A model generated the notes under the pieces. The model was not told the DNA's origin. It saw only the letters and a list, made by a program, of their open reading frames with translations, and made no database searches. DNA of 58,675 nt from an uncultured Oscillibacter sp. (GTDB lineage: Bacteria > Bacillota > Clostridia > Oscillospirales > Oscillospiraceae). Each line of letters starts with the position of its first letter. Position 1 is the first letter of the stretch. The position numbers and the translations under genes were made by a program. This document shows, in pieces, positions 18,355 to 57,951 of the stretch. Location of the stretch: positions 1-58,675 of the forward strand of contig CAMNRF010000005.1 of NCBI GenBank assembly GCA_946551795.1, in the 5' to 3' direction.

Positions 18355-18390
18355 ATGGGGCAATCCCATCAAAAGCGCCAGTGCCTGTAA
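18355..18390 (+). CDS. Possible 11-codon leader peptide over the glmS ribozyme
   Basis: ATG at 18355 is preceded by AAAGGAGG at 4-5 bases and encodes MGQSHQKRQCL. The frame crosses the ribozyme cleavage site at 18374/18375. Translation could interfere with or be interrupted by the ribozyme. It may equally be chance, since no conservation can be checked here. Confidence 0.3.
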   Translation: MGQSHQKRQCL

Positions 18391-18545
18391 TGTAAAAATG
18401 CCTTACAGGACGACGAGGAGAGGGAAGGATCGAAGATTCGGCGGATGTCCCTCCGTGCCCCGCGGGCGCGTGACGCGGGCCTTGAAATATGCGGGCGACC
18501 GCAAAACAAAGAGGCCGCGGCCGCGGAGAGAGCGACAAATCCTGC
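18370..18545 (+). ncRNA. glmS ribozyme
   Basis: Self-cleaving riboswitch activated by glucosamine-6-phosphate, lying 5' of glmS. The core is intact: AGCGCCAG at the cleavage site (between A18374 and G18375), GACGAGGAG, ATCGAAGATTCGGCGG and the following ATGTCCCTCC pseudoknot strand. A P3/P4 region extends to about 18545, just before the glmS ribosome site. High sugar phosphate would trigger cleavage and message decay. An 11-codon frame with its own ribosome site overlaps the cleavage site. Confidence 0.93.
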
Positions 18546-24912: not shown

Positions 24913-26045
24913 TGTCCACCTCCGAAAAAGATTGCATGATACAGCCGCTGCAGGCGAAGCAGCCGCCCATGGTCGTTAAAGTTTTTATAGTACGCGCTCT
25001 GGCAGTTCATGTACTGCTCCACGTCCGCAAAGGGGCGCTTCCCGGCCTTGAACTCCCGATAAAACAGCTTCAGCTTTCGGCGGGCGCGCTTTACCCCGTC
25101 CCGGCTGCCGTTGACCTTGATCTTCCCGGTCTCCGTCAGCGTGAACCGGGCCTTGCACCAGCGGAAGGGTTTTGTGAGAGGGATGATCTTGCACTTCCGC
25201 TTATTTACCCGGATGCCCATGGCCTCGAACCGGCGCACCATCTCCCGGATCACCGCTTTCAGCTGCTCCGCATCGGGCATGATGATGTAATAGTCATCCA
25301 TGTAATGCCCAGCGCAATGGATGCCCTTCTGGCACTTCAGCCAGTTATCCACCGCGCTGGGCAGGGCCACCATCTCCTGCTGGGACGGCTCCACGCCCAG
25401 GGGCATCCCCCGCTCCGGCGCGGTGCTGGGAGCGTATTGGACCACCGTATCAGCCAGCCAGCGCAGGTCAGGATTCGTGATCAGCAGCTGGTGCCGCTGA
25501 TAGATGCTCCAGCGCGGAGCATTGGGAAAGAAGCCTTTCAGGTCTATCAGCCCAACAGCGCCCTCCCGGCCCCACCGGCGAAAGTGCCAGTGCAGCTGGT
25601 CTTTGATGCGCCGAAAATGCCAGTGCAGGCCCTTGCCCCGCTGGCTGGCCCCGTTGTCGTAGATCATGCTGGGGGTGTAGAGGGGGATCAGGACCTCGTT
25701 GCAGTGTGTCTTATGCACCTGCCGGTCTGTGATGTGCGGGGCGTCGATGGGCCGCACCTTACCCCGCTCACACAAGGTAAAGTGGGTGCATTTCTTGGGC
25801 TTCCAGCGGCCCTCCAGCACCTCCCTCCGGCGTCTTGCGGTGCCGGAAAACAGGTGCAATTTGAAGTTCTGAGTTGACTGCTTCCAGTTGACACCATTGC
25901 AGCAACGGTGTCCGTAAAAGAACATTTTCCGATAGGAAAACACCTTGTCGATGGGGCCGAGGGCCGCACACCTGGCTTCCCTCCTGGCCTGCCGCTTTGC
26001 TTTGCGGCGTTGGTATCGCGCCTCCCGGCGCTCCTGGCTGGTCAT
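24873..26045 (-). CDS. Diversity-generating retroelement reverse transcriptase
   Basis: Copies the template repeat RNA with adenine errors so that cDNA replaces the variable repeat. Motifs in order: basic N-terminus, GKVRPIDAP, IDLKGFF with catalytic Asp (about 168), the DGR-specific LGVEPSQ (about 216-222) in place of the usual QG...SP, and YMDD (248-251). 390 residues, normal for the class. The start at 26045 has GGAGGG about 12 bases upstream. The catalytic residues are intact. It is the last gene of a complete target-avd-TR-RT cassette. Confidence 0.95.
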   Translation of the reverse strand: MTSQERREARYQRRKAKRQARREARCAALGPIDKVFSYRKMFFYGHRCCNGVNWKQSTQNFKLHLFSGTARRRREVLEGRWKPKKCTHFTLCERGKVRPIDAPHITDRQVHKTHCNEVLIPLYTPSMIYDNGASQRGKGLHWHFRRIKDQLHWHFRRWGREGAVGLIDLKGFFPNAPRWSIYQRHQLLITNPDLRWLADTVVQYAPSTAPERGMPLGVEPSQQEMVALPSAVDNWLKCQKGIHCAGHYMDDYYIIMPDAEQLKAVIREMVRRFEAMGIRVNKRKCKIIPLTKPFRWCKARFTLTETGKIKVNGSRDGVKRARRKLKLFYREFKAGKRPFADVEQYMNCQSAYYKNFNDHGRLLRLQRLYHAIFFGGGQCSGSQKTGPASA

Positions 26046-26271
26046 AATAAAGTATTCGCCCTCCGTACAGTTGTCTTGTCGGGTGCCGTCTAAATCTGCG
26101 TTGCCCCGGCACATGAAACGTGGTCAGGCACATCCCACGCCATGCAAGAAGCGTCCGTGCAGGGGCATCAAAGGGCAGTTTTAGGGATTAAAACCCAGGG
26201 AAGTACTTCTCCTTTTACGAAGGTCGTCTTTCACAATCGTTACTCCGTTTGACCTCGTATTTTCGTAAAAT
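26046..26271 (-). ncRNA. Spacer RNA between TR and reverse transcriptase
   Basis: 226 bases downstream of the template repeat with no convincing gene. In the Bordetella system the equivalent spacer belongs to the structured TR RNA that primes cDNA synthesis. The same role is inferred here from position only. Confidence 0.5.
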
Positions 26272-47541: not shown

Positions 47542-47784
47542 CACAAGCGCGTTATTTCTCACAGGCCCGTTTACCCCACCCAGGCCCTCGCGCGGTTTTT
47601 AAAGGGGGCTGTGGGCGTCTTAAACGGTATTTCAGAGGGACGGTAAAAGCCGGGTTGATTTTCAGGGGCCGGTGGGTGCGCTTCGCCACCCAGGCCCCCA
47701 ATCTTCAGCCCGGTTTTTCGCTCAATGTGTCCCTCGCTCACGGGGGGAGGGACGCATCAACCTCCGACCATTTACAAGTTCCTG
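47542..47784 (-). ncRNA. Structured leader between nusG paralogue and late operon
   Basis: 243 bases without a gene, packed with inverted repeats: 47729-47753 (7 bp), 47650-47713 (a 64-nt multi-stem hairpin CCGGG/CCCGG, GGGGCC/GGCCCC, GGGTG/CACCC), and others, ending in the terminator at 47520. LoaP-type NusG paralogues act on small leader hairpins before terminators. A similar role is inferred here. Confidence 0.7.
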
Positions 47785-48288
47785 TTATTCGCTTAAAAGG
47801 TTAAACGATAATGGGATGATCCGCTTCTCCCCGCACACGCTCAACTCCACGGTGGCGCGGCGGCTGTGCTTGTCGATCTTCTTGATCCGGCTGGGGAAGT
47901 GCTGGAGGATGCCGGTGCCAAGTTTGACCTCGCCCTCCGGCGTCAGCTGGGCCGTGGTAGGCTCCAGAGGCTTCCCCTCGCCAGCCAGCAGCTTGATCCA
48001 CTCGGCCTCCAGATAGGTCAGCGTGGACGGGTGCAGGCCGTCCGGGCCGAGGAACCGAAGCACACCGGGGATGGCCTTCACCATGTAATAGTTCTCGGCG
48101 GTGTAGTCCAGATTCAGGAACACATACCCCGGAAACAGGATATACTCCTTCTGGCTCCAGCCGCCGCCCTTGCGGATCAGGCGGTTCTCCCTGGGCGTAT
48201 AAGCCAGCACCCGATTGTTGCTCAGGGTGCTGGTCACCGCCATCTCCTTGCCTGTCGATACCTGCAGTACATACCACATAAGCCTCAC
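47785..48288 (-). CDS. NusG paralogue, LoaP-like antiterminator
   Basis: A 167-residue protein with an N-terminal NGN domain (WYVLQVSTGKEMAVTSTLSNN..., ILFPGYVFLNLDYTAENYYMVKAIPGVLRFLG) and a C-terminal KOW-like domain (HFPSRIKKIDKHSRRATVELSVCGEKRIIPLS). This is the shape of NusG/LoaP transcription elongation factors that bind RNA polymerase and let it pass terminators. The gene precedes a 240-base structured leader and a strong terminator before the late operon, so it most likely switches on head and tail expression. Confidence 0.87.
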   Translation of the reverse strand: MRLMWYVLQVSTGKEMAVTSTLSNNRVLAYTPRENRLIRKGGGWSQKEYILFPGYVFLNLDYTAENYYMVKAIPGVLRFLGPDGLHPSTLTYLEAEWIKLLAGEGKPLEPTTAQLTPEGEVKLGTGILQHFPSRIKKIDKHSRRATVELSVCGEKRIIPLSFNLLSE

Positions 48289-49177: not shown

Positions 49178-49575
49178 GTGTCGGTGCCTCCCTTTTTCAT
49201 CAAAATATCCAGGATCATGTCCAGCTTCCGCTCGGTCTTGGCCTGCTCCCGGAAGAAGTCCTCCTTGGTGAGGTAGTTCTCGGTGATCTTCTTGATGTCA
49301 CCCCGGACCTCGTCATAGGCCCGCTCATGGACGCTCCTGGGCGTGTAATCCTTTTTGATCTGCTCGATGTCCCGGACCAGTTTCTCCTGGTCCTTCTCAT
49401 ACTCGCCCTTTTTCGTGGTGCCGTCCCGGATTTCCCTGACCTCCTTGGCCAGTTCATCCACACGGGAGAACAGCGTCCGCTTGACCAGGAACACCACGGC
49501 CCCAATCAGAGCGGTGACCAGCAGGCCGATCAGCCACCAGGTCCCGGCGTCAAATGTCATTGCAGCGTTGTTCAT
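49174..49575 (-). CDS. Membrane-anchored coiled-coil protein (DUF2730-like)
   Basis: A 133-residue protein with one N-terminal membrane helix (WWLIGLLVTALIGAVVFLVKR) followed by a long charged coiled coil. Like the Mu gp25 DUF2730 group. The start at 49575 has GGGGGAG 8 bases upstream. It may act in lysis or as a holin-like factor, which I cannot tell. Confidence 0.72.
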   Translation of the reverse strand: MNNAAMTFDAGTWWLIGLLVTALIGAVVFLVKRTLFSRVDELAKEVREIRDGTTKKGEYEKDQEKLVRDIEQIKKDYTPRSVHERAYDEVRGDIKKITENYLTKEDFFREQAKTERKLDMILDILMKKGGTDT

Positions 49576-49600
49576 AGCAAACTCCCCCATGCGCAAAAAT

Positions 49601-49636
49601 AGACGGTACGATTGATTTACACCAATCATACCGTCT
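49601..49636 (-). promoter_or_regulatory. 36-base dyad between mor-like gene and the next operon
   Basis: AGACGGTA/TACCGTCT with an inner GATTG/CAATC pair, at the spot where Mu has its Mor-dependent middle promoter. It includes the -10-like TATGAT (49625-49630). A TTGCTG lies 18 bases further upstream (49649-49654). ATTTTTG follows on the minus strand, so a terminator is the alternative reading. Confidence 0.55.
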
Positions 49637-49678
49637 AAACCGTAAAATCAGCAACGCAAAGCGTTTAAGTTTTTTGCT

Positions 49679-49990
49679 TTACAACAGGGACAGCTGGCCG
49701 TCCATGGGCCGGGCGCGAAGTTCCCGCACCTTGTCTGATACGATACTCCGAATTGTGATCTCTGTCAAATCATATTTCCTGGCCAATTCCCGGAAGTTGT
49801 ACCCGTCGAACTCTGCCCGGATGCGCTCGTTGCGCTCCATGCGCTCCAACCTGTCGGTCTTGGGGATGTAGAGATAGGCCCCGCCATAGACCTCCATCAG
49901 CTTTCTGAAGTTCTCCGGGCCGATCAGAGCGGCCACCTCCTGCTGGCCCTCGCTCAAATCCTCCAGCCGGATTTCCTCCTGTGCGCTCAC
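49679..49990 (-). CDS. Mor-like transcription activator
   Basis: A 103-residue DNA-binding protein. The IGPENFRKLMEVYGGAYLYIPKTDRLERMERNERIRAEFDG segment and the C-terminal helix-turn-helix (NFRELARKYDLTEITIRSIVSDKVRELR) fit the Mor/C family that activates Mu middle and late promoters at dyad sites. GTG start overlaps the previous stop (GTGA), with GGGAGGTGATC upstream. It probably acts at the dyad 49601-49636. Confidence 0.85.
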   Translation of the reverse strand: MSAQEEIRLEDLSEGQQEVAALIGPENFRKLMEVYGGAYLYIPKTDRLERMERNERIRAEFDGYNFRELARKYDLTEITIRSIVSDKVRELRARPMDGQLSLL

Positions 49991-50481
49991 TCTGGATCAC
50001 CTCCCGGAGGCGGCCCTTTCACGTTGGCCACATACTTCTTCAATACCTCAATCAGCTTGTTGCAGGTCTGGAACTCCAGCCAGGCAAAGGGCTGGGCAGG
50101 AATAGCGTCAACCTTCAGTTCCTTTTTGATGATCCCGCACAGGCGCTCCCCCAGGGAGGCCGTGGAGGGCGCTGTGTCGCGCCGCTGCAGTTCATACATC
50201 AATGCCCACACCTTGCGCTGCTGGCCCTCTGTGGCCCCGCCAGGGCGCTCAGTGTGCGCCTTGGGCCTGCGCCTGGGGTGAGGGGCGTCACCTTGCCGCT
50301 TCTCCAGGTCCCGGATCACCGCCTGGGCCTCGGCATAGGTCAGGGCCTTCAGCGAGTCCTTCCCGGTGATGGAGGACACCAGGTCGTGCAGGCTGTCCTC
50401 GGCGTTGCCGCGCTCCACGATCCCCAGCGCGTTGCCGATGGCGTAGATCTTCCTGATTTGCTGTGTAGCGATAGCAGCCAT
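49987..50481 (-). CDS. GemA-like regulator (Mu gp16, DUF1018)
   Basis: A 164-residue protein, ATQQIRKIYAIGNALGIVERGNAEDSLHDLVSSITGKDSLKALTYAEAQAVIRDLEKR, the pattern of the gp16/GemA family. In Mu it is dispensable and affects host gyrase-linked expression. GGAGGGG lies upstream of the start. Part of the middle-early operon. Confidence 0.82.
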   Translation of the reverse strand: MAAIATQQIRKIYAIGNALGIVERGNAEDSLHDLVSSITGKDSLKALTYAEAQAVIRDLEKRQGDAPHPRRRPKAHTERPGGATEGQQRKVWALMYELQRRDTAPSTASLGERLCGIIKKELKVDAIPAQPFAWLEFQTCNKLIEVLKKYVANVKGPPPGGDPE

Positions 50482-50501
50482 GCCGCCCCTCCTTTCTTGC
50501 G

Positions 50502-51206
50502 CTATGCTCTCGGCGCTTCGGCCTCGATGCCCACTTTGATGGTTTCCTCCACAATGACAGCGGCCCGGATGATGTCAATGGCCTCCTGGGGGCTGCCTGT
50601 CCATCCGGCAGCCTGCAGCACCTGTGTCAGCCACTCCCAGTTGATGACTTCGGCGGCCAGGTAGGCCCAATCGCTGGCCTCCTGCTCCGGCAGCCCGGCC
50701 ACCTTCATCAGCATGGCCTTGTCCTTGTCCCATCGCCCCTTCAGCTTCTTGCGCAGGGTGGCCTGGATTCTCGGATCGCCGCTGATCTGGCCGATCACGC
50801 TGTCCAGGCTCCCCTCGGTGTAGTTGCCCTGGGCGGCCATGGCCAGCAGCTTCTTGCAGGAGGCGGTCATGGTGTCGGTGGTCTCTGTCTTGATGAAGTC
50901 CCCGGCGATACCGCCCAGCAGCTGCTTCACCATGGTCAGCGACACCGGCTTCACCGAGGCGGCGTTGGTCACCGTCACCCGGCTGTTCTGCGTCCCCCAA
51001 TAGGAGGCGGTCAGCAGCTTAGTGTCCTTCAGGTCATCGGTGGCCATGGTCTCGAAGTAGCCCTTCAGCCACTCCATGCGGTCCTTGATGCGTCCGGCCT
51101 CCAGAGCCAGGGCGGCGTACTCATCCACATACGCCCTGATCTGCTCGGCCTGGCACTCCTCCGGGGTCTTGAGGGTAGCCAGGCTGTCCTGTGCCAACTC
51201 AGCCAT
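50502..51206 (-). CDS. DUF3164-like early protein
   Basis: A 234-residue soluble, mostly helical protein. CQAEQIRAYVDEYAALALEAGRIKDRMEWLKGYFETMATDDLKDTKLLTASYWGTQNSRVTV is seen near the N-terminus, as in early proteins of Mu-like phages of the sulfate and clostridial groups. The start at 51206 overlaps the AbrB-like stop. Its function may concern replication or host takeover. Confidence 0.65.
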   Translation of the reverse strand: MAELAQDSLATLKTPEECQAEQIRAYVDEYAALALEAGRIKDRMEWLKGYFETMATDDLKDTKLLTASYWGTQNSRVTVTNAASVKPVSLTMVKQLLGGIAGDFIKTETTDTMTASCKKLLAMAAQGNYTEGSLDSVIGQISGDPRIQATLRKKLKGRWDKDKAMLMKVAGLPEQEASDWAYLAAEVINWEWLTQVLQAAGWTGSPQEAIDIIRAAVIVEETIKVGIEAEAPRA

Positions 51207-51453
51207 GGACGCGCTCCACCTCCTCCCGGATACCCAGGGAACACTCGCGGCAGATGTCAAAGCCCTTGAAGTTCACCACCTCATGGGTACCGCCGCAGAT
51301 GTTGCAGGTGGCTCGATGTTTCTGGAGCAGCAACCCGCCATCCTCGGTGGTGGCGATGTCCAGCGCCATGCCGCCCTGGAATCCCAGCTGGTGCCGCAGG
51401 TGCTGCGGGATGGTCAGGGTGCCTTTTTTGCCCATGCGTTTCTGTGCGTTCAT
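51199..51453 (-). CDS. AbrB-like DNA-binding protein with zinc knuckle
   Basis: An 84-residue protein with an N-terminal swapped-hairpin AbrB-type domain (GKKGTLTIPQHLRHQLGFQGGMALDIATTEDGGLLLQK) and a C-terminal four-Cys zinc site (CNIC, CREC). AAGGAGG lies 7 bases before the ATG at 51453. The combination suggests a phage transcription regulator. A twister-like element ends about 20 bases upstream. Confidence 0.75.
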   Translation of the reverse strand: MNAQKRMGKKGTLTIPQHLRHQLGFQGGMALDIATTEDGGLLLQKHRATCNICGGTHEVVNFKGFDICRECSLGIREEVERVHG

Positions 51454-51474
51454 CAGCATACCTCCTTCGTAGTA

Positions 51475-51533
51475 GCCTCACTCTGCATTATCCGGGCTTG
51501 TGACCGGCTCCCTGGGGGAGGCTGCATTAAGGC
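51475..51533 (-). ncRNA. Twister-like self-cleaving ribozyme, copy A
   Basis: Minus-strand RNA: UUAA (cleavage expected between U51529 and A51528), P2 TGCA pairing with TGCA, a CUCCC/GGGAG hairpin, then GCCGGUCACAAGCCCGG and AUAA, then GAG. This order and the GCCGGUC.CAAGCCCGG block match the twister family. A GC hairpin (to 51551) precedes it and is also conserved in copy B. It sits in the gap before the AbrB-like gene. Confidence 0.78.
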
Positions 51534-51551
51534 AGGGGCCGCGCCCCCTGG
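51475..51551 (-). repeat. Intercistronic repeat, copy A
   Basis: 77 bases, about 96 percent identical to 53145-53223 (two single-base indels, one substitution). Includes the twister candidate plus a GGGGCCGCGCCCC palindrome. Confidence 0.9.
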
Positions 51552-51553
51552 GG

Positions 51554-51718
51554 TCAGTGTATGGTCCCGGAGGTCCCCAGCTGAAGCTGCTCCGGCAGGT
51601 CCTCGGTGACGGACACCACCTTGGCGTCCCCAAACCGCTCCAAGTGCTGGGCCAGGTCCTCCTTGATCCCGATGGCCTGGCCGGGCGGGGCATCCACCTG
51701 GATTATGATGGTCAACAT
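51554..51718 (-). CDS. Small early protein, unknown
   Basis: A 54-residue open frame, MLTIIIQVDAPPGQAIGIK... EDLPEQLQLGTSGTIH, with good codon use and typical spacing to both neighbours (the upstream gene's stop is 4 bases away). Predicted beta-alpha-beta with an acidic end. No known family. Confidence 0.65.
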   Translation of the reverse strand: MLTIIIQVDAPPGQAIGIKEDLAQHLERFGDAKVVSVTEDLPEQLQLGTSGTIH

Positions 51719-51722
51719 GGTA

Positions 51723-51917
51723 TTACACCTCCACGCGCTCCAGCTTTGTTACATCAAAACCGCCTGGATAGTTCTTCAATTTGACTACCGTGCTGCCGCA
51801 GACTTTCCATGGCTCACTTGCCACTTCCCATATAACTCCGGGGTGACAATCTGCCTCCAGGCAGTTGACCATTTTGACCATATCGCCAATATGGAATTTT
51901 TTCCTTTGCCGTTTCAT
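51723..51917 (-). CDS. Small early protein, SH3-like
   Basis: A 64-residue protein rich in Lys and Val (FHIGDMVKMVNCLEADCHPGVIWEVASEPWKVCGSTVVKLK), a beta-rich pattern with two Cys. May be an SH3-like or KOW-like small binding domain. Its role is unknown. Early operon position. Confidence 0.6.
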   Translation of the reverse strand: MKRQRKKFHIGDMVKMVNCLEADCHPGVIWEVASEPWKVCGSTVVKLKNYPGGFDVTKLERVEV

Positions 51918-51931
51918 ATCACTACATCCTT

Positions 51932-52162
51932 TCAGCTGTGGGTGGCGTTGAAGTTCTCAATCGCCCACCTGTTGCCCGTGGCCAGAACGGCCCGCCTGGT
52001 GCGCTCCGCTGGCCCCTCCTGCCGCCTGGGCGTGGCGGCCAGGGCCTCCATCATCCCGCAGTCCGGGCAGATGTCCGTAGCGTTGTCCCTGCGGGAGAGG
52101 GCGGGCGGCTCGGTGTAGGCCCGCCCGCAGATGGGGCAAATCCGCGCTTTGGTCTTATTCAT
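51932..52162 (-). CDS. Zinc-ribbon early protein
   Basis: A 76-residue protein with two Cys pairs (ARICPICGRAYTEPP and DICPDCGMMEAL), a zinc-ribbon pattern, and an arginine-rich C-terminal half. Likely binds nucleic acid or a partner protein. Adjacent to the DnaC-like gene. Confidence 0.68.
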   Translation of the reverse strand: MNKTKARICPICGRAYTEPPALSRRDNATDICPDCGMMEALAATPRRQEGPAERTRRAVLATGNRWAIENFNATHS

Positions 52163-52168
52163 GGGGCG

Positions 52169-53122
52169 TCATCCTTTCTCTCGTTTCTGGAGCCGGATGT
52201 CCCGGCCCTTGAACTCCACCACCGCATACGTCCCGGCGATCCGGGAGTACACCCGGCTGGTGTATTTCTTCTCAATATCCCGCAGGCCCAGGTTGGTGTT
52301 GATGATGGTGGGGCGGCTGGTGTTCAGCCGGGTGTTCACCAGGTCATAGACCTCCGATCTGGTATAGCTGGTGACCATCTCGGTCCCCAGGTCATCTATC
52401 ACCAGCAGATCGCAGCCGAAGATGATCTCCCGATACTCCAGCGCCGCTGCGTCCTTTTGGAACTTGCCGCGCTCCAGTTCATCCATCAGGTGCGGGGCCG
52501 ACACATACATGATCAGCCACCCGGAGCGCACCACCCCCTCGGCCACCGCCAGGGAGAGGTGCGTCTTGCCCAGGCCCGGCGGGCCGGTGAACAGGAGGTT
52601 CTTGCTTTCCTTGCTGAACTCCCGGACATAGCGCAGGCAGCTTTCCACCACCTTGCCCATCGCCGCCCGCTGTTCCCGGTCATAGTAGGCCAGGCTGAAG
52701 TTGTCAAAGGAACACTCCCGCGCCGGGGACACGTCGCACAGCTGCTCATACACCAGCTGGTTCAGAATCGTCTGCCTGCAGGTGCAGGTCTGGCCGTTGA
52801 CCACGCCCCGGTCCATGCAGGCCGGGCAGGTGTAGGGCGGCTCCAGGTCTGCCTCGGTAATCCCGGCTGCCGCCATCAGGGCTTGCAGCTGCTCCCGCCC
52901 GGCGCTGATCTGCGCGTCAATGTCCTCCAGGGTGTCCTGCTTGAAGATGGCCGCCGTGCTGCGCTTGGCATATAGGCCGTTCAGGGACCTTCGGGCGGCC
53001 TCCACCTCCGGGTGCTGCTCATGGAACAAGGTCATGGTGTGGGCCTGCCGTCTCTCGGCGTCCCAGCGGCGGGCGGCCAGGATTTCATCGGCCCGCTTCG
53101 CCAGCTTCTTGGGGTATTTCAT
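52169..53122 (-). CDS. DnaC-like helicase loader ATPase
   Basis: A 317-residue AAA+ protein that probably loads the replicative helicase. A four-Cys zinc patch (YTCPACMDRGVVNGQTCTC) precedes the ATPase core. Walker A is NLLFTGPPGLGKTHLSLAVAEG, with Walker B CDLLVIDDLGTE. The N-terminal helical region resembles DnaC/DnaI. Mu borrows host DnaC, so a dedicated loader is an added independence here. Twister copy B lies upstream. Confidence 0.87.
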   Translation of the reverse strand: MKYPKKLAKRADEILAARRWDAERRQAHTMTLFHEQHPEVEAARRSLNGLYAKRSTAAIFKQDTLEDIDAQISAGREQLQALMAAAGITEADLEPPYTCPACMDRGVVNGQTCTCRQTILNQLVYEQLCDVSPARECSFDNFSLAYYDREQRAAMGKVVESCLRYVREFSKESKNLLFTGPPGLGKTHLSLAVAEGVVRSGWLIMYVSAPHLMDELERGKFQKDAAALEYREIIFGCDLLVIDDLGTEMVTSYTRSEVYDLVNTRLNTSRPTIINTNLGLRDIEKKYTSRVYSRIAGTYAVVEFKGRDIRLQKREKG

Positions 53123-53144
53123 TTAACCACCTCGCTTTGCAGGT

Positions 53145-53205
53145 GCCTCACTCTGCATTTATCCGGGCTTGTGACCGGCTCCCTGGAGGGAGGCTGCATT
53201 AAGGC
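53145..53205 (-). ncRNA. Twister-like self-cleaving ribozyme, copy B
   Basis: Same architecture as 51475-51533: UUAA, TGCA/TGCA, CUCCC/GGGAG hairpin, GCCGGUCACAAGCCCGG, AUAAA. The one substitution and the indels fall outside the conserved core. It lies just upstream of the dnaC-like start and downstream of the membrane protein gene. Confidence 0.78.
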
Positions 53206-53223
53206 GGGGGCCGCGCCCCCTGG
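53145..53223 (-). repeat. Intercistronic repeat, copy B
   Basis: 79 bases. Partner of 51475-51551. Confidence 0.9.
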
Positions 53224-53226
53224 CCG

Positions 53227-53451
53227 TTATTGGAACTGCTCTCGCGCTTCTCGCCACATAGCGCCCAGCTGCCAGCCCAGGTATATCAGCAGGATGATCA
53301 GCGGCAGGATCAGGGCCTCGCCGCCCGGCAGGCCGTCCCGTTGCGCCCAGGTTTCCATCCCATATACCAGCAGCAGCCCGCTCATCACCCCGCTCAAAAA
53401 CACCAGGACCAGCCGCGCCGTCCATCCGATTTTGCGCCAGCATCTTTTCAC
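53227..53451 (-). CDS. Small membrane protein
   Basis: A 74-residue protein with two hydrophobic helices (TARLVLVFLSGVMSGLLLVYG and EALILPLIILLIYLGWQLGAMW). The GTG start at 53451 has AAAGGGG 8 bases upstream. TTG at 53469 is an alternative. Possibly an exclusion or lysogeny-related protein. Unknown. Confidence 0.62.
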   Translation of the reverse strand: MKRCWRKIGWTARLVLVFLSGVMSGLLLVYGMETWAQRDGLPGGEALILPLIILLIYLGWQLGAMWREAREQFQ

Positions 53452-53474
53452 CGTAAAAACCCCTTTCAAATCGT

Positions 53475-53702
53475 TTAACCCTCTTGGAACTCCGGGCAGG
53501 CCAGCACCCGGTAGCTTTCCACCTGCCCTTTATGGAACATTTTCAGATCCCGCCGCTCCGCTTCCCAGCCCTCCACCGGCGTGTGCGCCCGCCTGCTCCA
53601 GCTGCATCCCGCCCCGGTCTCCGGGGACGGCACCGCATTCCGGCAAAACCAGCACAGCGACATTGTGGGGGGCCTGTCGTGCTTTTGCCTTATCCATGGC
53701 AC
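53475..53702 (-). CDS. Small Cys-rich phage protein
   Basis: A 75-residue protein with CWFCRNAVPS, ETGAGCSWSR, HTPVEGWEAE and a C-terminal VLACPEF: a four-Cys, probably zinc-binding, small phage family seen in gut Clostridia. GTG start at 53702 lacks an obvious ribosome site. The in-frame ATG at 53663 is possible. A competing frame (53530-53697) has a better ribosome site but no family resemblance. Confidence 0.6.
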   Translation of the reverse strand: MPWIRQKHDRPPTMSLCWFCRNAVPSPETGAGCSWSRRAHTPVEGWEAERRDLKMFHKGQVESYRVLACPEFQEG

Positions 53703-53708
53703 CCGCCC

Positions 53709-54668
53709 TTACACCAGGCCGATGCCCATGGTCCGGGCCATGCCATACAAGCCATCGTGGCTGATGTCCTCGTTGTTGACAGCGTTGTTGTAGACGTTGA
53801 CCGCGCCCCGGATGCCCCACTTGCTCTGGCAGATACCGTGCAGGAAAGTCAGTTCCTTGGTCCTGCCCTCCTCGGCCAGCTTGGGAAATAGCGCCTTCAC
53901 ATCGTCGCTGGTGACCTTGCGGGTGCTGTAGTAGCGGTTCATGCGGATGCGGCTGAACAGCTGGGCGAAGCGGGCCTCCTGCTTGCCTACCATCCGGGCG
54001 TAGACCTCGGTGTTGCCGATCAGGGCGATGCCCACGCCCGGCTGACCGGTGATGGGGTTGGGGTCGGCCCAGGCCCTGATCTCCTCCAGGGCGCGAAGCT
54101 GCAGGTGCTGGGCCTCGTCGATGATGATGACCTTGTTTGTCCCCTCCAACTTCTCCCGGATGGACAGCATCAGGTCCAGCTTGTTGCGGCTCTCCGGCAC
54201 CTTCAGCGCCCGCGCCACCACCTTCAGGAGGTTGCCCAGAGTGCCGATGCTGGGGGTGGCCTGGATATACACGCTGGCGGCGGGGTTCTCCCGCACGAAC
54301 TTCTCGGCCCCCTTGGTCTTGCCGATCCCGGCGTCACCGTGGATGATGACCATGCCCTTTTCGATCTGGCAGTAGCGGATCAGCTTGCACACGTCCTCGG
54401 AAATGGAGGTGGGGATGTAGTCCTGGGTGGGCCGGTAGGGCATGGCCTTTTCGGTGCTGGCCTGCTGCTCCTCCTGGGTGCGGAAGAACTCCTCCAGCTT
54501 GCTTTCCAGCGCGGCGATGTCGCCGTTGTCGTACATACTGCGCCGGTACTGTGAGAGGGCCGTCTGGCTGATCCCCATCATGGGGGCGGCCTTGGCCTGG
54601 CTGATGCCCTTATCCTTCAGGAACTGCTCCACCCGTGCCTGCAGGGTGCTGTTGTACTCTTTACTCAT
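53709..54668 (-). CDS. MuB-like target-DNA activator ATPase
   Basis: A 319-residue AAA+ ATPase that picks target DNA and stimulates the transposase. N-terminal helix-turn-helix (residues 15-45, ISQAKAAPMMGISQTALSQYRR). Walker A GDAGIGKT (111-118), Walker B VIIIDEAQ (180-187). The ATG overlaps the transposase stop by 8 bases. As with MuB, it would also give target immunity. Confidence 0.92.
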   Translation of the reverse strand: MSKEYNSTLQARVEQFLKDKGISQAKAAPMMGISQTALSQYRRSMYDNGDIAALESKLEEFFRTQEEQQASTEKAMPYRPTQDYIPTSISEDVCKLIRYCQIEKGMVIIHGDAGIGKTKGAEKFVRENPAASVYIQATPSIGTLGNLLKVVARALKVPESRNKLDLMLSIREKLEGTNKVIIIDEAQHLQLRALEEIRAWADPNPITGQPGVGIALIGNTEVYARMVGKQEARFAQLFSRIRMNRYYSTRKVTSDDVKALFPKLAEEGRTKELTFLHGICQSKWGIRGAVNVYNNAVNNEDISHDGLYGMARTMGIGLV

Positions 54669-56625
54669 GATCGCTGCCTCCCTTTCGTTTTAAAGCGTTT
54701 CGGTTCATAACATCCAGGTCGGGACCGCCCGCCACCGCTCTCAGTAGCGGCTCCTCATCAGGCCGCTGGAGTTCCAGCACCTTGGGGTCCGCGCTGGGGA
54801 CGATCCTGGCGGTCTTGCTTTGGTGCGCCTGCTCCATGACAAGTTCCAGGGCGGTGCGCCGAGATACAAACGGGAGAATACTGGCTTCCACCTGGGCCTT
54901 GGCCTTCTTCTTCAGGCTCCGGGTCTTTCGGATGGCGTCCTTGACCTGCTCACCGTCATCGCCGTACTTACAGATCACATCATCCCTGGCCGGTAGCGTG
55001 CAGATAAAACGGTCCTGCAGGTCGTACACCCTGACCTCTCGGAGGTCATCCGGGTCATAACGCAGGTATACCTGCTTCCCTTGCATCTGCATGATGAAGT
55101 CATCATCCCAATAGGAAATGTTGTACCCGGCGATGGGAAGCCGAACACCCAACCGCCCAACCTTCTGCGGGCGGGCGCTGCGCATCAACATCAGGTTCAG
55201 GTCCTCGGCCCCGGCCACCCGCTTGGTGTACAAGTTCTCATTGTAGACCTGCTGGCGGGGCTTGCCCCGGTCCGCTACTACCTCGCCGCCGTAGGGCTGC
55301 TGGTTGAAATACCAATCCAGCAACTCCTCCACCGCCTCGGTAAAGGTGCTGTCCAGGGGTATCTCGCCATTCTTCAGGACGCCCTTCAGGCGCTCCGGCT
55401 TTTCCAGGACGTTGCCGCCTGTGTAGGTGTCAAACAGTCGGGAGAGGTGATCCTTTACGTCCCGGAACCGCCGCTCGATGATTTTCGCCTTGGCGTTGCG
55501 CACGATGGCGTTAGTCATCTTGATCCCCAGCCGTTCAAACACCGGGGGCGGCTCGAACCGCTCCTGTCCATCCTTGGGCTTCTTTTTGCGGTGGCCCAGG
55601 CCGCCGATATCAAAGGTCAGGAACTCGCGGCCATTGTCCACATAGATGTTTTCCGGGATGCCGTACTTCAAAATGCCCTTGCGCAGTGCGATCAGCGTTG
55701 CCTGACTGCTGGGAGCCGTGGTAACATAGCACCCAGTGAAGATACCGCTGCGGGCATCGAAGAAAGCTGTCAAATATAGGCGGTGCCGCTGGCCGTTGTC
55801 GCCCTGGGTGATCACGTCGAATGTGTGGTTGTCCGCGATCCACCACTCGTTGCTGGCCATTTCGCTGTAGATACGCTGGATGTACGGGGCGCAGCGGTCA
55901 TCAAACGCCTTCTCGCCTTCCCGTCCCAATATCTTGATTGGTTCGGGGATATCGTTCTGCACCATTCGGTAAAAAGTCGTGTAACTCGGTATGTCGGCCA
56001 CCAGGTAGGGGGCCTCCTGCTGCGCCCACAGCTTCATGTACTCATAGCACTTTTTGATGGGGTGCTGACTTTGATCCAGATAGTAATACAGAAAAGCCTG
56101 CCGCATGGGATCGGTGATGGTGCTTTTCCCTTTTCGGTTCTTGCCCCGCTTGTTCACCAGGCCGTCCAGATCATTCTCATCCAAGGCCCGCTGGCGTCTG
56201 TACAGCATATCCACCGAGAGCCTGTGCTCCGGGTCCGTTTTGGCGCACAGGGCGATGAACATATCATCGGCCTCGGCCTTGCTGCCGGGGTACTTGCTCC
56301 GATACTGCTGCCACTCTTTCAGCGTCCTCAGCCACCAGGCGATCTCCTTCTGCTCCTCGGCGGTGTAGTGATCCAGCGGCTTGCTGGCCTTGCGCTCTGG
56401 CAGGAGGTCAGCTGGAGGCACGGGGAAGCTGGCTTTCACCTGATAGAAATACTTCAACACTAAATCGGGGTTATATTCTGCAATGGCATCAATGGAAAAC
56501 TCCCATTCAGAAGTGCTGGTCGGTTTTTTCCCTTTCAGCTTTCCTTCCTTTGCCAGCTTTCGGATGAATTGCTCACTGCAGCCCTTCAACTCTGCAACTT
56601 GCTTGGTATTCAGCCTGGTTTCCAT
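54661..56625 (-). CDS. Mu-type DDE transposase
   Basis: Cuts and joins the prophage ends to target DNA, for integration and replicative transposition. N-terminal winged or MerR-like DNA-binding domain (LNTKQVAELKGCSEQFIRKLAKEGKL, 5-30). The DDE core has Asp265 (WWIADNH), Asp330 (IYVDNGREF) and Glu384 (KIIERRFRDVK). A Mu-type beta-barrel follows (about 490-560), then a basic C-terminus. 654 residues, like MuA. A hammerhead candidate separates it from the gene upstream. Confidence 0.94.
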   Translation of the reverse strand: METRLNTKQVAELKGCSEQFIRKLAKEGKLKGKKPTSTSEWEFSIDAIAEYNPDLVLKYFYQVKASFPVPPADLLPERKASKPLDHYTAEEQKEIAWWLRTLKEWQQYRSKYPGSKAEADDMFIALCAKTDPEHRLSVDMLYRRQRALDENDLDGLVNKRGKNRKGKSTITDPMRQAFLYYYLDQSQHPIKKCYEYMKLWAQQEAPYLVADIPSYTTFYRMVQNDIPEPIKILGREGEKAFDDRCAPYIQRIYSEMASNEWWIADNHTFDVITQGDNGQRHRLYLTAFFDARSGIFTGCYVTTAPSSQATLIALRKGILKYGIPENIYVDNGREFLTFDIGGLGHRKKKPKDGQERFEPPPVFERLGIKMTNAIVRNAKAKIIERRFRDVKDHLSRLFDTYTGGNVLEKPERLKGVLKNGEIPLDSTFTEAVEELLDWYFNQQPYGGEVVADRGKPRQQVYNENLYTKRVAGAEDLNLMLMRSARPQKVGRLGVRLPIAGYNISYWDDDFIMQMQGKQVYLRYDPDDLREVRVYDLQDRFICTLPARDDVICKYGDDGEQVKDAIRKTRSLKKKAKAQVEASILPFVSRRTALELVMEQAHQSKTARIVPSADPKVLELQRPDEEPLLRAVAGGPDLDVMNRNALKRKGGSDHE

Positions 56626-56646
56626 CGGTCCACCCGCTTTCTTGAC

Positions 56647-56705
56647 CTGCCATCATCAGTGTGGGGAGGTCATCCCCCGCAGACGCCCCGGAGGACGTTT
56701 CGGCT
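56647..56705 (-). ncRNA. Type II hammerhead ribozyme candidate, copy 1
   Basis: Minus-strand RNA begins right after the upstream stop codon: GCC, GAAA, stem III ACGUCC-UCCG-GGGCGU (UNCG loop), GUC with cleavage expected between 56682 and 56681, stem I closed by a loop (UG.GGGG/CCCC.CA), CUGAUGA, then U and GGC pairing with the first GCC. All core elements are present. The single extra U after CUGAUGA differs from consensus. Confidence 0.8.
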
Positions 56706-56906
56706 TTAGTCGGCTTCCTCTTGCCCTAAATATTCCTTGATCCTCTGTTCCAGCCGGTTGGACATATGACCGTCAAAAAGGTCGTTGATCTTTGAGTGGG
56801 CGGTAGGGTCTGTTTGATTGAGGTACAACATAATCGCCATTGCCAAGGGTTCCCTGGAAAACGCTTCCTCCGTGATTGCTTCTTTCAGCGCATCTGTTCT
56901 GTCCAT
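56706..56906 (-). CDS. Small early protein, unknown
   Basis: A 66-residue helical protein (TDALKEAITEEAFSREPLAMAIMLYLNQTDPTAHSKINDLF...). It is flanked by ribozyme candidates on both sides, starting 18 bases after one and ending at the start of the other. A weak AAAGGA lies upstream. Possible transposition accessory factor. Unrecognised. Confidence 0.65.
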   Translation of the reverse strand: MDRTDALKEAITEEAFSREPLAMAIMLYLNQTDPTAHSKINDLFDGHMSNRLEQRIKEYLGQEEAD

Positions 56907-56923
56907 ATAGATTTCCTTTCTGC

Positions 56924-56984
56924 CCTGCCATCATCAGGCCAGGTGGGGCGGCTCCTGGCGACGGCCCGCAGGCCGTTTCGGCTG
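56924..56984 (-). ncRNA. Type II hammerhead ribozyme candidate, copy 2
   Basis: Same plan as copy 1 with covarying stems: GCC, GAAA, stem III ACGGCC-UGCG-GGCCGU (UNCG loop), GUC (cleavage expected between 56960 and 56959), stem I GCCAGG/CCUGGC, CUGAUGA, U, GGC. Where copy 1 has U-G, copy 2 has G-C. Stem I sequences differ completely but both pair. It starts immediately after the stop at 56985. Confidence 0.82.
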
Positions 56985-57179
56985 TTACCTGCTTTTAACG
57001 ATACAAAGCTGGAACTCGCTTCCATCGGACATCCGAAGCACCAGGCCATTGTCACGGCTCATCATCCCCGCATCCGCGAAAGTAGTTACACTGACCAATT
57101 CCTCGAAAGCGGTGTCGCTTACGTCGCAATCTCCATCCAGGATCATTTCCAGCGCATTTTGGATTACTAACTCGTTCAT
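56985..57179 (-). CDS. Small early protein, unknown
   Basis: A 64-residue acidic protein (MNELVIQNALEMILDGDCDVSDTAFEELVSVTTFADAG is predicted helical, then beta). It follows the Ner/Cro-like gene by 3 bases and so is likely translated from the same early message. No motif is known. It may modify transposase or repressor function. Confidence 0.65.
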   Translation of the reverse strand: MNELVIQNALEMILDGDCDVSDTAFEELVSVTTFADAGMMSRDNGLVLRMSDGSEFQLCIVKSR

Positions 57180-57182
57180 GGT

Positions 57183-57377
57183 TTAGGCTCCTTTCGTTTC
57201 GGTAAAAATATCTTCGATGCTACATTCCAGGATTTGCGCTAACTGGAGGCAATTCCTTAACCGTGGCTGCGCAATGCCTCGTTCCCATTGACTGATGGCC
57301 GTCTGGTCAACATGAACCATTTGTGCCAGCTGCACTTGGGTAAGCCCCTTTTCTTTCCTTAACGTGCGAAGTCCCAT
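57183..57377 (-). CDS. Ner/Cro-like early repressor
   Basis: A 64-residue XRE protein made almost only of a helix-turn-helix: LRTLRKEKGLTQVQLAQMVHVDQTAISQWERGIAQPRLRNCLQLAQIL. It is the first gene of the early operon, the position of Mu Ner and lambda Cro. It may bind the AGTAG-N4-CTACT operators and shut off repressor synthesis. GGAGG lies upstream. Confidence 0.88.
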   Translation of the reverse strand: MGLRTLRKEKGLTQVQLAQMVHVDQTAISQWERGIAQPRLRNCLQLAQILECSIEDIFTETKGA

Positions 57378-57393
57378 TTACGCGCCTCCTTTC

Positions 57394-57407
57394 AGTAGTT
57401 TACTACT
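57394..57407. promoter_or_regulatory. Operator O1 (AGTAG-TTTA-CTACT)
   Basis: Perfect 5-bp half-sites, just downstream of the early -10 box. Confidence 0.8.
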
Positions 57408-57435
57408 ATTATAAGCCAAACTCCTATTTTGTCAA
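57408..57435 (-). promoter_or_regulatory. Early lytic promoter
   Basis: Minus-strand consensus TTGACA (57430-57435) and TATAAT (57408-57413), spacer 16. Its -35 shares the end base with operator O2 and its start region overlaps O1. Confidence 0.9.
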
Positions 57436-57448
57436 GTAGTAATCTACT
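57435..57448. promoter_or_regulatory. Operator O2 (AGTAG-TAAT-CTACT)
   Basis: Same half-sites as O1, centred 41 bases away (about four helical turns), at the early -35 and upstream of the repressor promoter. Confidence 0.8.
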
Positions 57449-57459
57449 AAAATTTTTTG

Positions 57460-57488
57460 TTGCGTTTTATTAGTACAACTCCTATAAT
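57460..57488 (+). promoter_or_regulatory. Repressor promoter
   Basis: TTGCGT (57460-57465), 17 bases, TATAAT (57483-57488), about 22 bases before the TTG start at 57511. Confidence 0.75.
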
Positions 57489-57510
57489 GAAATATAAGGA
57501 GGTGTCTGCC

Positions 57511-57951
57511 TTGAATTCTTTACGGAAACTTCGCAAGGAAAAAGGGCTGTCACAACAAAACCTGGCAGAACTTTTAGCTGTAAATCAAACAGCTGTCAGC
57601 CAATGGGAGCGGGGTATAACAACTCCATCCTCCCGAATGCTGTTAAAATTGAGCCAAATCTTTAGCGTCAACCCATGTGAATTGCTAAATGATGCTGGTG
57701 TAACTTCCGCTCATCAGTGGGACGATCCCGAAATTATGGAGGCTGTGCGGGAAAGCCTTCCAGCGCAGATCAGCGGGCTGAATGACGTGCTAAAGGGCTG
57801 CCCCGCTCAGGAGCAGAAGCTGACCTTTGACATCCTGGTGCAGCTTCGCTATGTGCTGGAATTGAAAGACACCGCCAAAAGGATGACGGCCCTATCTATG
57901 CTCCATGATGTCGCCGCCGCTGTAGAACACCTTGCTGGCGAAGAAAAATGA
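57511..57951 (+). CDS. Prophage repressor (CI/c-like)
   Basis: A 146-residue repressor on the opposite strand to all other prophage genes. N-terminal helix-turn-helix (SLRKLRKEKGLSQQNLAELLAVNQTAVSQWERGITTPSSRML), closely related to the Ner/Cro-like protein so both may recognise the same operators. Its C-terminal helical domain (PEIMEAVRESLPAQISGLNDVLKGCPAQEQKL...) probably makes dimers. TTG start with AAGGAGG 8 bases upstream. No peptidase motif, so it is not a RecA-cleaved CI. Confidence 0.88.
   Translation: MNSLRKLRKEKGLSQQNLAELLAVNQTAVSQWERGITTPSSRMLLKLSQIFSVNPCELLNDAGVTSAHQWDDPEIMEAVRESLPAQISGLNDVLKGCPAQEQKLTFDILVQLRYVLELKDTAKRMTALSMLHDVAAAVEHLAGEEK

Follow-up and report, generated by a model that had tools for sequence, protein, structure and literature searches.

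Putative self-cleaving ribozymes between the early genes of a group of Mu-like prophages in Clostridia

The contig CAMNRF010000005.1 of the assembly GCA_946551795.1, which comes from an uncultured Oscillibacter sp. and was analysed at its full length of 58,675 nucleotides (nt; below, the window), carries a Mu-like prophage, in which the families MuA, GemA, Mor and Gp27 are matched. The subject of this work is its early operon, encoded on the minus strand together with all the operon features given below, where candidate hammerhead and twister ribozymes stand between the genes and may cut one early transcript into several messages. The genes follow the order MuA, MuB-like ATPase, GemA and Mor, typical for the early operon of a Mu-like phage, and the MuA-MuB order is shared with the early operons of Mu and BalMu-1; the early genes of Mu form one transcript. 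A transposase 100% identical to that of the window is present in an Oscillospiraceae assembly (L042), and a protein search in 300 genomes of the same family returned, at E ≤ 1e-40, only the window's own protein and one relative of 33% identity.

The operon is preceded by an early promoter candidate (TTGACA-16-TATAAT, 57408..57435), a 12/12 sigma-70-like match and the best of the region, located 5′ of the gene for a Ner/Cro-like helix-turn-helix protein of 64 amino acids (aa; 57183..57377; Pfam HTH_3, 2e-17). Then comes a second 64-aa gene with no assigned function (56985..57179), an open reading frame (ORF) whose substitutions by codon position against the close relative L044 number 5, 2 and 11, and after it the type II hammerhead (a) (56919..56983, predicted cut 56960/56959; Rfam Hammerhead_II, 37.1 bits at a cut-off of 37). 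An ORF of 66 aa (56706..56906), for which neither a family match nor a counterpart in L044 was found, separates it from the type II hammerhead (b) (56641..56705, predicted cut 56682/56681; Hammerhead_II, 45.0 bits), which is abutted by the stop codon of this ORF and lies 5′ of the MuA-like transposase gene of 654 aa (54661..56625; Mu-transpos_C 9e-17, HTH_Tnp_Mu_2 4e-10). The MuB-like AAA ATPase (53709..54668) is named after its AAA_22 match (4e-20) and its position after MuA, and is followed by ORFs of 75 aa (53475..53702) and, with a TTG start and equal length in L005, 80 aa (53227..53469). A hairpin (53206..53220, found in the sequence), which would form the end of the upstream message, directly precedes the type P1 twister (a) (53145..53205, predicted cut 53201/53200; Rfam twister-P1, 68.1 bits at a cut-off of 67.2). 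Next are the gene for a DnaC-like helicase loader or IstB-like ATPase (52169..53122; IstB_IS21 1e-18, phrog_50 1.7e-44) and three small ORFs of 76 aa (51932..52162, with weak zinc-finger-like matches), 64 aa (51723..51917) and 54 aa (51554..51718, with a weak coding pattern). A second such hairpin (51534..51548, also found in the sequence) stands directly before the type P1 twister (b) (51475..51533, predicted cut 51529/51528; 61.7 bits, below the Rfam cut-off, E 2e-12). The operon ends with an AbrB/MazE-like gene (51199..51459; TIGR01439 2e-5, below its cut-off, and phrog_4681 5e-14), a gene without family match that is labelled Gam by its position alone (50502..51224), a GemA-like gene (49987..50481; Pfam GemA 4e-22), a Mor-like activator of later transcription (49679..49990; Pfam Mor 2e-18) and a terminator-like hairpin of 17 pairs with a T tail (49600..49637), identical in L044.

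Since the perfect promoter precedes Ner and the terminator-like hairpin follows Mor, the operon is probably transcribed as one early RNA of about 7.8 kb. Weaker promoter-like sites were noted on the same strand inside Mor (10/12, 49768-49740) and MuA (9/12, 55802-55773); on both strands together four such sites were found against 2.9 expected, which is near chance. With the cuts placed by the known cleavage chemistry of the hammerhead and twister classes, the coordinates give pieces of about 0.44, 0.28, 3.5, 1.7 and 1.9 kb.

In the original prediction, made from the sequence of the window, it was noticed that the longest gaps between Ner and Mor each hold one ribozyme, and this observation stands: the four gaps measure 78, 80, 104 and 94 nt and all others 20 nt or less, and both the two hammerheads (around the 66-residue gene and before the transposase) and the two twisters (before the dnaC-like and AbrB-like genes) are Rfam matches in operon sense. 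The gap lengths depend on the chosen gene calls. At the twister gaps, the 80-aa and 54-aa ORFs compete with ORFs of 94 and 71 aa, respectively, that extend into the twisters and are preferred by a mechanical gene caller. Against L044 (a 74% relative), the competitors show substitutions by codon position of 3, 1, 0 and 4, 7, 3, with one and two gaps, and the favoured ORFs show, gap-free, 0, 0, 2 (80 aa) and 4, 3, 6 (54 aa), all these counts being small and the 54-aa case weak. Because the mechanical caller favours ORFs that enter the ribozymes, gap statistics across relatives were not used. Moreover, a ribozyme by itself takes up about 65 nt between two genes, so that its presence in long gaps is partly automatic; the informative points are the absence of any other long gap and the conservation of the positions.

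The window copies have the features of their classes. Both hammerheads contain the core CUGANGA and GAAA and the NUH cleavage triplet, which vary little or not at all among 28 aligned sequences, and the architecture is that of type II, with helices I and III closed and helix II open, all covarying. A pseudoknot between loop I and the 3′ tail, lying outside the search model, covaries as well (95.7% of cells paired) and, as read from the alignment, is formed by 5/5 pairs in hammerhead (b) and 4/5 in hammerhead (a). The twisters have the type-P1 architecture of P1, P2, two hairpins and conserved cleavage-site and core bases; AAUG, CGGU and CAAGCCCG are invariant across 40 aligned sequences, and 86.9% of P1 cells are paired, with the outermost pair formed in 22 of the 40. 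Neither alignment contains a conserved additional domain, such as the metabolite domain of a glmS-like ribozyme, and no Rfam riboswitch matched within 49500-57600 at E up to 0.05.

Family models were built from 28 hammerheads (R1) and 40 twisters (R2). They score the four window ribozymes at 73.8-81.4 bits, matches that hold by construction because the window copies were among the seeds. The models were run over 112 of 122 records, the ten others being duplicates, pieces of the window and L003 (a weak own-genome match), and at E ≤ 0.01 they gave 129 hammerhead and 110 twister matches, with near-copies of one phage counted separately; 239 of 239 lie in operon sense. In the covariation counts, which leave aside 15 (R1) and 21 (R2) matches and use model-fitted alignments, 104 distinct hammerheads have 97.9% of cells paired with 460 both-side changes, and 79 distinct twisters have 95.1% with 266. 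Neither measure was attained in either set by any of 500 shuffles, and MAFFT alignments of the seeds agree with the model-fitted ones (97.1 and 95.2% paired). Chance matches are thus ruled out by E-values, strand and covariation. The twister matches would be largely lost at Rfam's gathering score: most twisters of the relatives fall below the RF03160 cut-off of 67.2, at which none of the 23 twisters detected by R2 in 28 loci is reported.

Are the positions kept among the relatives? The 102 loci were reduced to 87 non-redundant ones by MuA identity, and the slot counts omit the loci with distant MuA (L032-L041), BalMu-1 and L010. One of the related prophages, L076, is carried by a cultivable organism, the type strain Anaerotruncus colihominis DSM 17241. 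The slot before MuA could be assessed in 83 loci, L013, L016, L090 and L115 being counted as truncated there, and 67 of them have a hammerhead at most 900 nt upstream (46 within 70 nt; 21 at 143-673 nt, often with one small gene between). The slot before AbrB was counted in 56 loci, the other 31 having no recognisable AbrB; a ribozyme precedes the gene in 48, namely a hammerhead in 3 and a twister in 45 (42 by the distance rule and 3 that fall inside an AbrB ORF called too long, within its first 100 nt). The comparison with related prophages, proposed beforehand, therefore bears out that positions are kept while sequences change. Among 65 loci with the Gam/GemA/Mor block, 53 carry at least one ribozyme of each fold; nine loci with long enough flanks lack the block, and four of these have one to three ribozymes and five none. 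It could be asked whether the ribozymes serve for RNA ligation or the formation of circles, or are selectively neutral and maintained by mosaic exchange. Hammerheads are able to ligate RNA. For prophage hammerheads, splicing or circles were considered by Perreault et al. (2011; PMC3088659), who detected neither; the invariable strand, the recurrence of the slots and the strong covariation make either reading highly improbable.

The use of two unrelated folds at equivalent positions, a further element of the original prediction, was found in its most direct form within one clade. L084 has a hairpin and twister before the AbrB-like gene, where L104, L082 and L087 have a type II hammerhead before the orthologous AbrB. 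The ribozyme is followed by a 25-nt leader, AGAATTTTGAAAACTGAATAGGAGG, and then by AbrB; L084 and L104 share this leader exactly, L087 has one base changed and L082 more than one. The gene upstream of the slot is orthologous in L084 and L104 (39% identity over 112 aa, E 6e-22) and not orthologous to these in L082 and L087. The exchanged stretch is the entire hairpin and twister against the entire hammerhead. In the MuA tree (84 rows, Shimodaira–Hasegawa-like approximate likelihood ratio supports, short search; L023 and L030 omitted for out-of-frame translations and one more for length), these four form one group with L090, whose sequence lacks the AbrB region, with support of 99. Judged from the sequences, this is an in-place swap of unrelated folds at the AbrB slot, a single event whose direction cannot be told from the data.

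Some loci depart from the common arrangement. A twister occupies an unusual slot in L055 (12236-12299), between the Gam-position gene and GemA, and in L056 (7294-7347) a twister lies upstream of MuA, where relatives carry hammerheads. Three distant Mu-like contigs have five weaker type II hammerhead matches, situated several kb past MuA (L034 7804-7875; L038 6892-6960 and 8058-8126; L040 7082-7151 and 8249-8317). These contigs are outside the slot counts, so that the matches are uncounted; they appear to be other slots in other Mu-like phages. In a ribozyme-free MuA group, L089, L095, L097, L103 and L105 have Ner adjoining MuA and no recognised Gam/GemA/Mor block, and are perhaps not phages. 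Other ribozyme classes in empty slots were sought at Rfam gathering scores in 28 loci and at E 0.01 in six (L010 in both), with none found; in 87 loci, a simple descriptor lacking a positive control, applied to the sense strand between 4 kb before and 7 kb after MuA, found no hammerheads of type I or III.

What would the cuts leave behind? For the analysis of ends, 124 hammerheads were taken, two of which lie too near the locus end, and the remaining 122 were reduced to 111 without near-copies; 110 twisters were reduced to 94. A perfect stem of at least five pairs ending within 6 nt of P1 precedes 92 of the 94 twisters, and such hairpins occur in 22 of 94 windows at both 40 and 80 nt upstream and, after shuffling, in a mean of 21.6 of 94 (maximum 32). 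The mean folding energy before twisters is -10.5 kcal/mol, against -5.6 and -5.5 further upstream, and before hammerheads -3.3. Stem sequences vary, so the hairpin is a structure with little sequence conservation, and it could be a better handle for annotators, given the twisters missed at the gathering score. These hairpins as terminators were ruled out: there is no T tract, and no terminator was called at either window twister on the transcribed strand. Standing directly before the twister, the hairpin would remain on the upstream message as a terminal stem-loop. In type II hammerheads helix III itself remains on the upstream product, so that no added hairpin is needed, and one was found before 20 of 111. 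With pairing defined as a probability of at least 0.8 in the last 9 nt, and eight hammerheads without a clear cut site excluded, the upstream-product ends are paired in 103/103 hammerheads and 93/94 twisters, compared to 134/222 and 107/188 in random windows. The 3′ arm of the hairpin reaches the base before P1, or the weak outermost base of P1, in 77 of 94 twisters, and this flush junction is what would be expected if the hairpin were a folding insulator stacked on P1 and the ribozymes cut without any protection of ends. Since hammerheads seldom have a preceding hairpin and yet leave one by their own architecture, an insulator of this kind is held to be rather improbable, and a 3′ cap left by cutting is preferred. 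Outside the phage group, the strict hairpin (at least 5 pairs in the stem, up to 12 nt in the loop, no more than 6 nt away) precedes 5 of 12 distinct twisters, so that the rule is strict in this group only; a loose one (at least 7 pairs, a loop of up to 40 nt, no more than 12 nt away) is present in 9 of 12, one of them with a misplaced anchor, against 4 of 12 sixty nt upstream.

The flanking genes are arranged around the ribozymes in a regular manner. On the downstream side, 103 of 111 hammerheads and 91 of 94 twisters have the start codon of an ORF of at least 40 aa no more than 60 nt away, at median distances of 15 and 20 nt, and this start has a Shine-Dalgarno-like match in 65/103 and 82/91 cases, respectively. 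On the upstream side, 58/111 hammerheads begin no more than 3 nt from the end of an ORF of at least 40 aa, compared to 2.1% at random positions. With this overlap, a gating of the cuts by translation has to be taken seriously, either as a rival or as a refinement: a terminating ribosome would block hammerhead folding, so that messages with efficient translation would remain in one piece and those with poor translation would be cut. The overlap may be mere compact packing, and at twisters the upstream ORF ends 10-40 nt before P1 in 69/94, with the hairpin between or overlapping; gating by ribosomes is considered unlikely as a replacement for the simple cutting of the transcript.

The interpretation that we regard as reasonably probable is a cut-and-cap punctuation of one early transcript. 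The folds rest on covariation, and cutting in cells is what we infer from them. In this scheme, the four ribozymes would cut the transcript of about 7.8 kb during or soon after its synthesis into five mRNAs, carrying Ner and the 64-aa gene; the 66-aa gene; MuA, MuB and the 75- and 80-aa genes; the DnaC-like gene and three small genes; and AbrB, Gam, GemA and Mor. Each upstream mRNA would be left with a 3′ stem-loop, which is either hammerhead helix III or the extra hairpin before the twister, and which presumably guards against 3′ exonucleases. Each downstream mRNA would begin with the remains of the ribozyme near its start codon, a stem at the 5′ end being a tendency in hammerheads only; Bacillus subtilis mRNA can be stabilised by a hairpin close to its 5′ end, according to the part of PMC3997798 available. 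The segments would then be translated and degraded independently of one another, thus the transposition, replication and activator modules could be present in unequal amounts and could trade genes with no effect on their neighbours. In the original prediction, too, it was suggested that the cuts perhaps set the ratios of transposase, MuB and DnaC-like protein or uncouple decay. Selection would act on cutting and leaving a hairpin, not on any one fold. A further step, proposed tentatively and with the arguments nearly evenly balanced, is that what is inherited is not a ribozyme as such but an exchangeable cassette for cutting and capping, placed at the module borders where Mu-like phages of Clostridia swap genes, the slot accepting every small self-cleaving fold whose cut leaves a 3′ stem-loop, either a type II hammerhead or a hairpin with a twister.

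Several observations weigh against this interpretation. By the rule used, 16 of 83 loci have no hammerhead at the MuA slot, among which L023 does have one that was missed by the rule and 12 form a single group of the MuA tree (support 90); 8 of 56 have no ribozyme accepted before AbrB, including L021, where the twister and a short AbrB ORF are 311 nt apart, and neither model matches in 3 of the 65 phage-type loci with the Gam/GemA/Mor block. No ribozyme was found in BalMu-1, unlike in the window operon, though its transposase is about as near as that of L006 (39 and 41%). In minimum-energy folds of the window's own cut ends, the expected 3′ hairpin appears in 3 of 4 and a stem flush with the 5′ terminus in 1 of 4; no end among the eight stands well below its shuffles (z between -1.68 and +1.47), and for the 45-nt upstream end of twister (b) pairing other than the hairpin 51534..51548 is favoured. 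Downstream, 5′ ends are paired in 59/103 hammerheads (control 63/222), making 5′ capping partial, and in 13/94 twisters (control 48/188), where it fails; capping of both ends was dropped for this reason. Finally, a 5′-OH end can speed decay, and RNase J1 degrades the ribozyme-cleaved glmS mRNA of B. subtilis, as stated in the accessible text of PMC3997798. This precedent, together with the mostly unpaired first bases of the twister products, speaks for a glmS-like decay, in which RNase J would remove the downstream 5′-OH segments and lower the transposase or later products. The short distances to the starts and the Shine-Dalgarno-like matches are as expected for translated segments and the upstream hairpins look protective, so that decay as the purpose of the cuts appears unlikely, if somewhat less so than the other rivals, and punctuation into translated messages remains preferred.

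It had also been claimed that no phage operon organised in this way was described, and this fails in part, since Perreault et al. (2011; PMC3088659) already proposed hammerhead processing of prophage transcripts. According to the consulted part of that paper, several hammerheads in a prophage stand around single genes or small groups of genes, and the authors imply that long phage transcripts are processed into operon- or gene-length mRNAs; polycistronic RNAs of about 2 kb were cleaved in vitro and one cluster in Escherichia coli, and in haloviruses HF1 and HF2 a hammerhead lies before an early helicase gene, with a transcript 5′ end no more than 3 nucleotides from the cut site. As described there, these clusters consist of hammerheads alone and the gene identities are not constant, whereas the present phage group has a defined operon with recurrent slots, twisters, the pre-twister hairpin and the in-place swap. 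Hammerhead, twister and pistol ribozymes are associated with phage genes (Harris et al., 2015; PMC4604425, citing Weinberg et al., 2015), the first two being commonly near certain phage genes and other ribozymes; in the portion of that paper at hand, the association served to find RNAs and no slot-by-slot anatomy is given. Similarly to the glmS ribozyme, the candidates represent natural self-cleavage of bacterial mRNA leaving a 5′-OH, here predicted; glmS, as portrayed in the sections available, is ligand-controlled, belongs to a single leader and leads to decay (PMC3997798), and the folds here lie between genes and have no recognised ligand domain. Phages are unmentioned in the available part of the review PMC6154101. 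Slot conservation in Mu-like operons, the pre-twister hairpin and the in-place swap were not found in the literature searched, and the source papers of 2014 and 2015 may say more. Thus, the processing of prophage transcripts by hammerheads and the association of both classes with phage genes are known, and the twister hairpin and the in-place swap appear to be new. With its recurrent slots, dozens of natural replicates, the in-place swap and a testable 3′ hairpin, this operon allows the question of what most bacterial hammerheads and twisters do to be addressed directly by experiment. If the proposal is true, phages split an operon with ribozymes instead of internal promoters, terminators or RNases.

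Three more structured RNAs were recorded in the window. In the region 47680-48288 (minus strand), a RAGATH-28 RNA (52.6 bits) immediately follows a LoaP/NusG-like antiterminator gene, assigned by NF033641 (113 bits, cut-off 125) and phrog_6386, and lies before the terminase gene; it scores above cut-off also in L006, L017, L054, L056, L073, L079, L081, L082 and L094, and may be the RNA target of this antiterminator in the late operon. RAGATH RNAs reportedly come from the 2015 programme of Weinberg et al. The others are an RT-2 RNA (26038-26257, minus strand, 173 bits) and a glmS ribozyme (18363-18529, plus strand, 80.6 bits).

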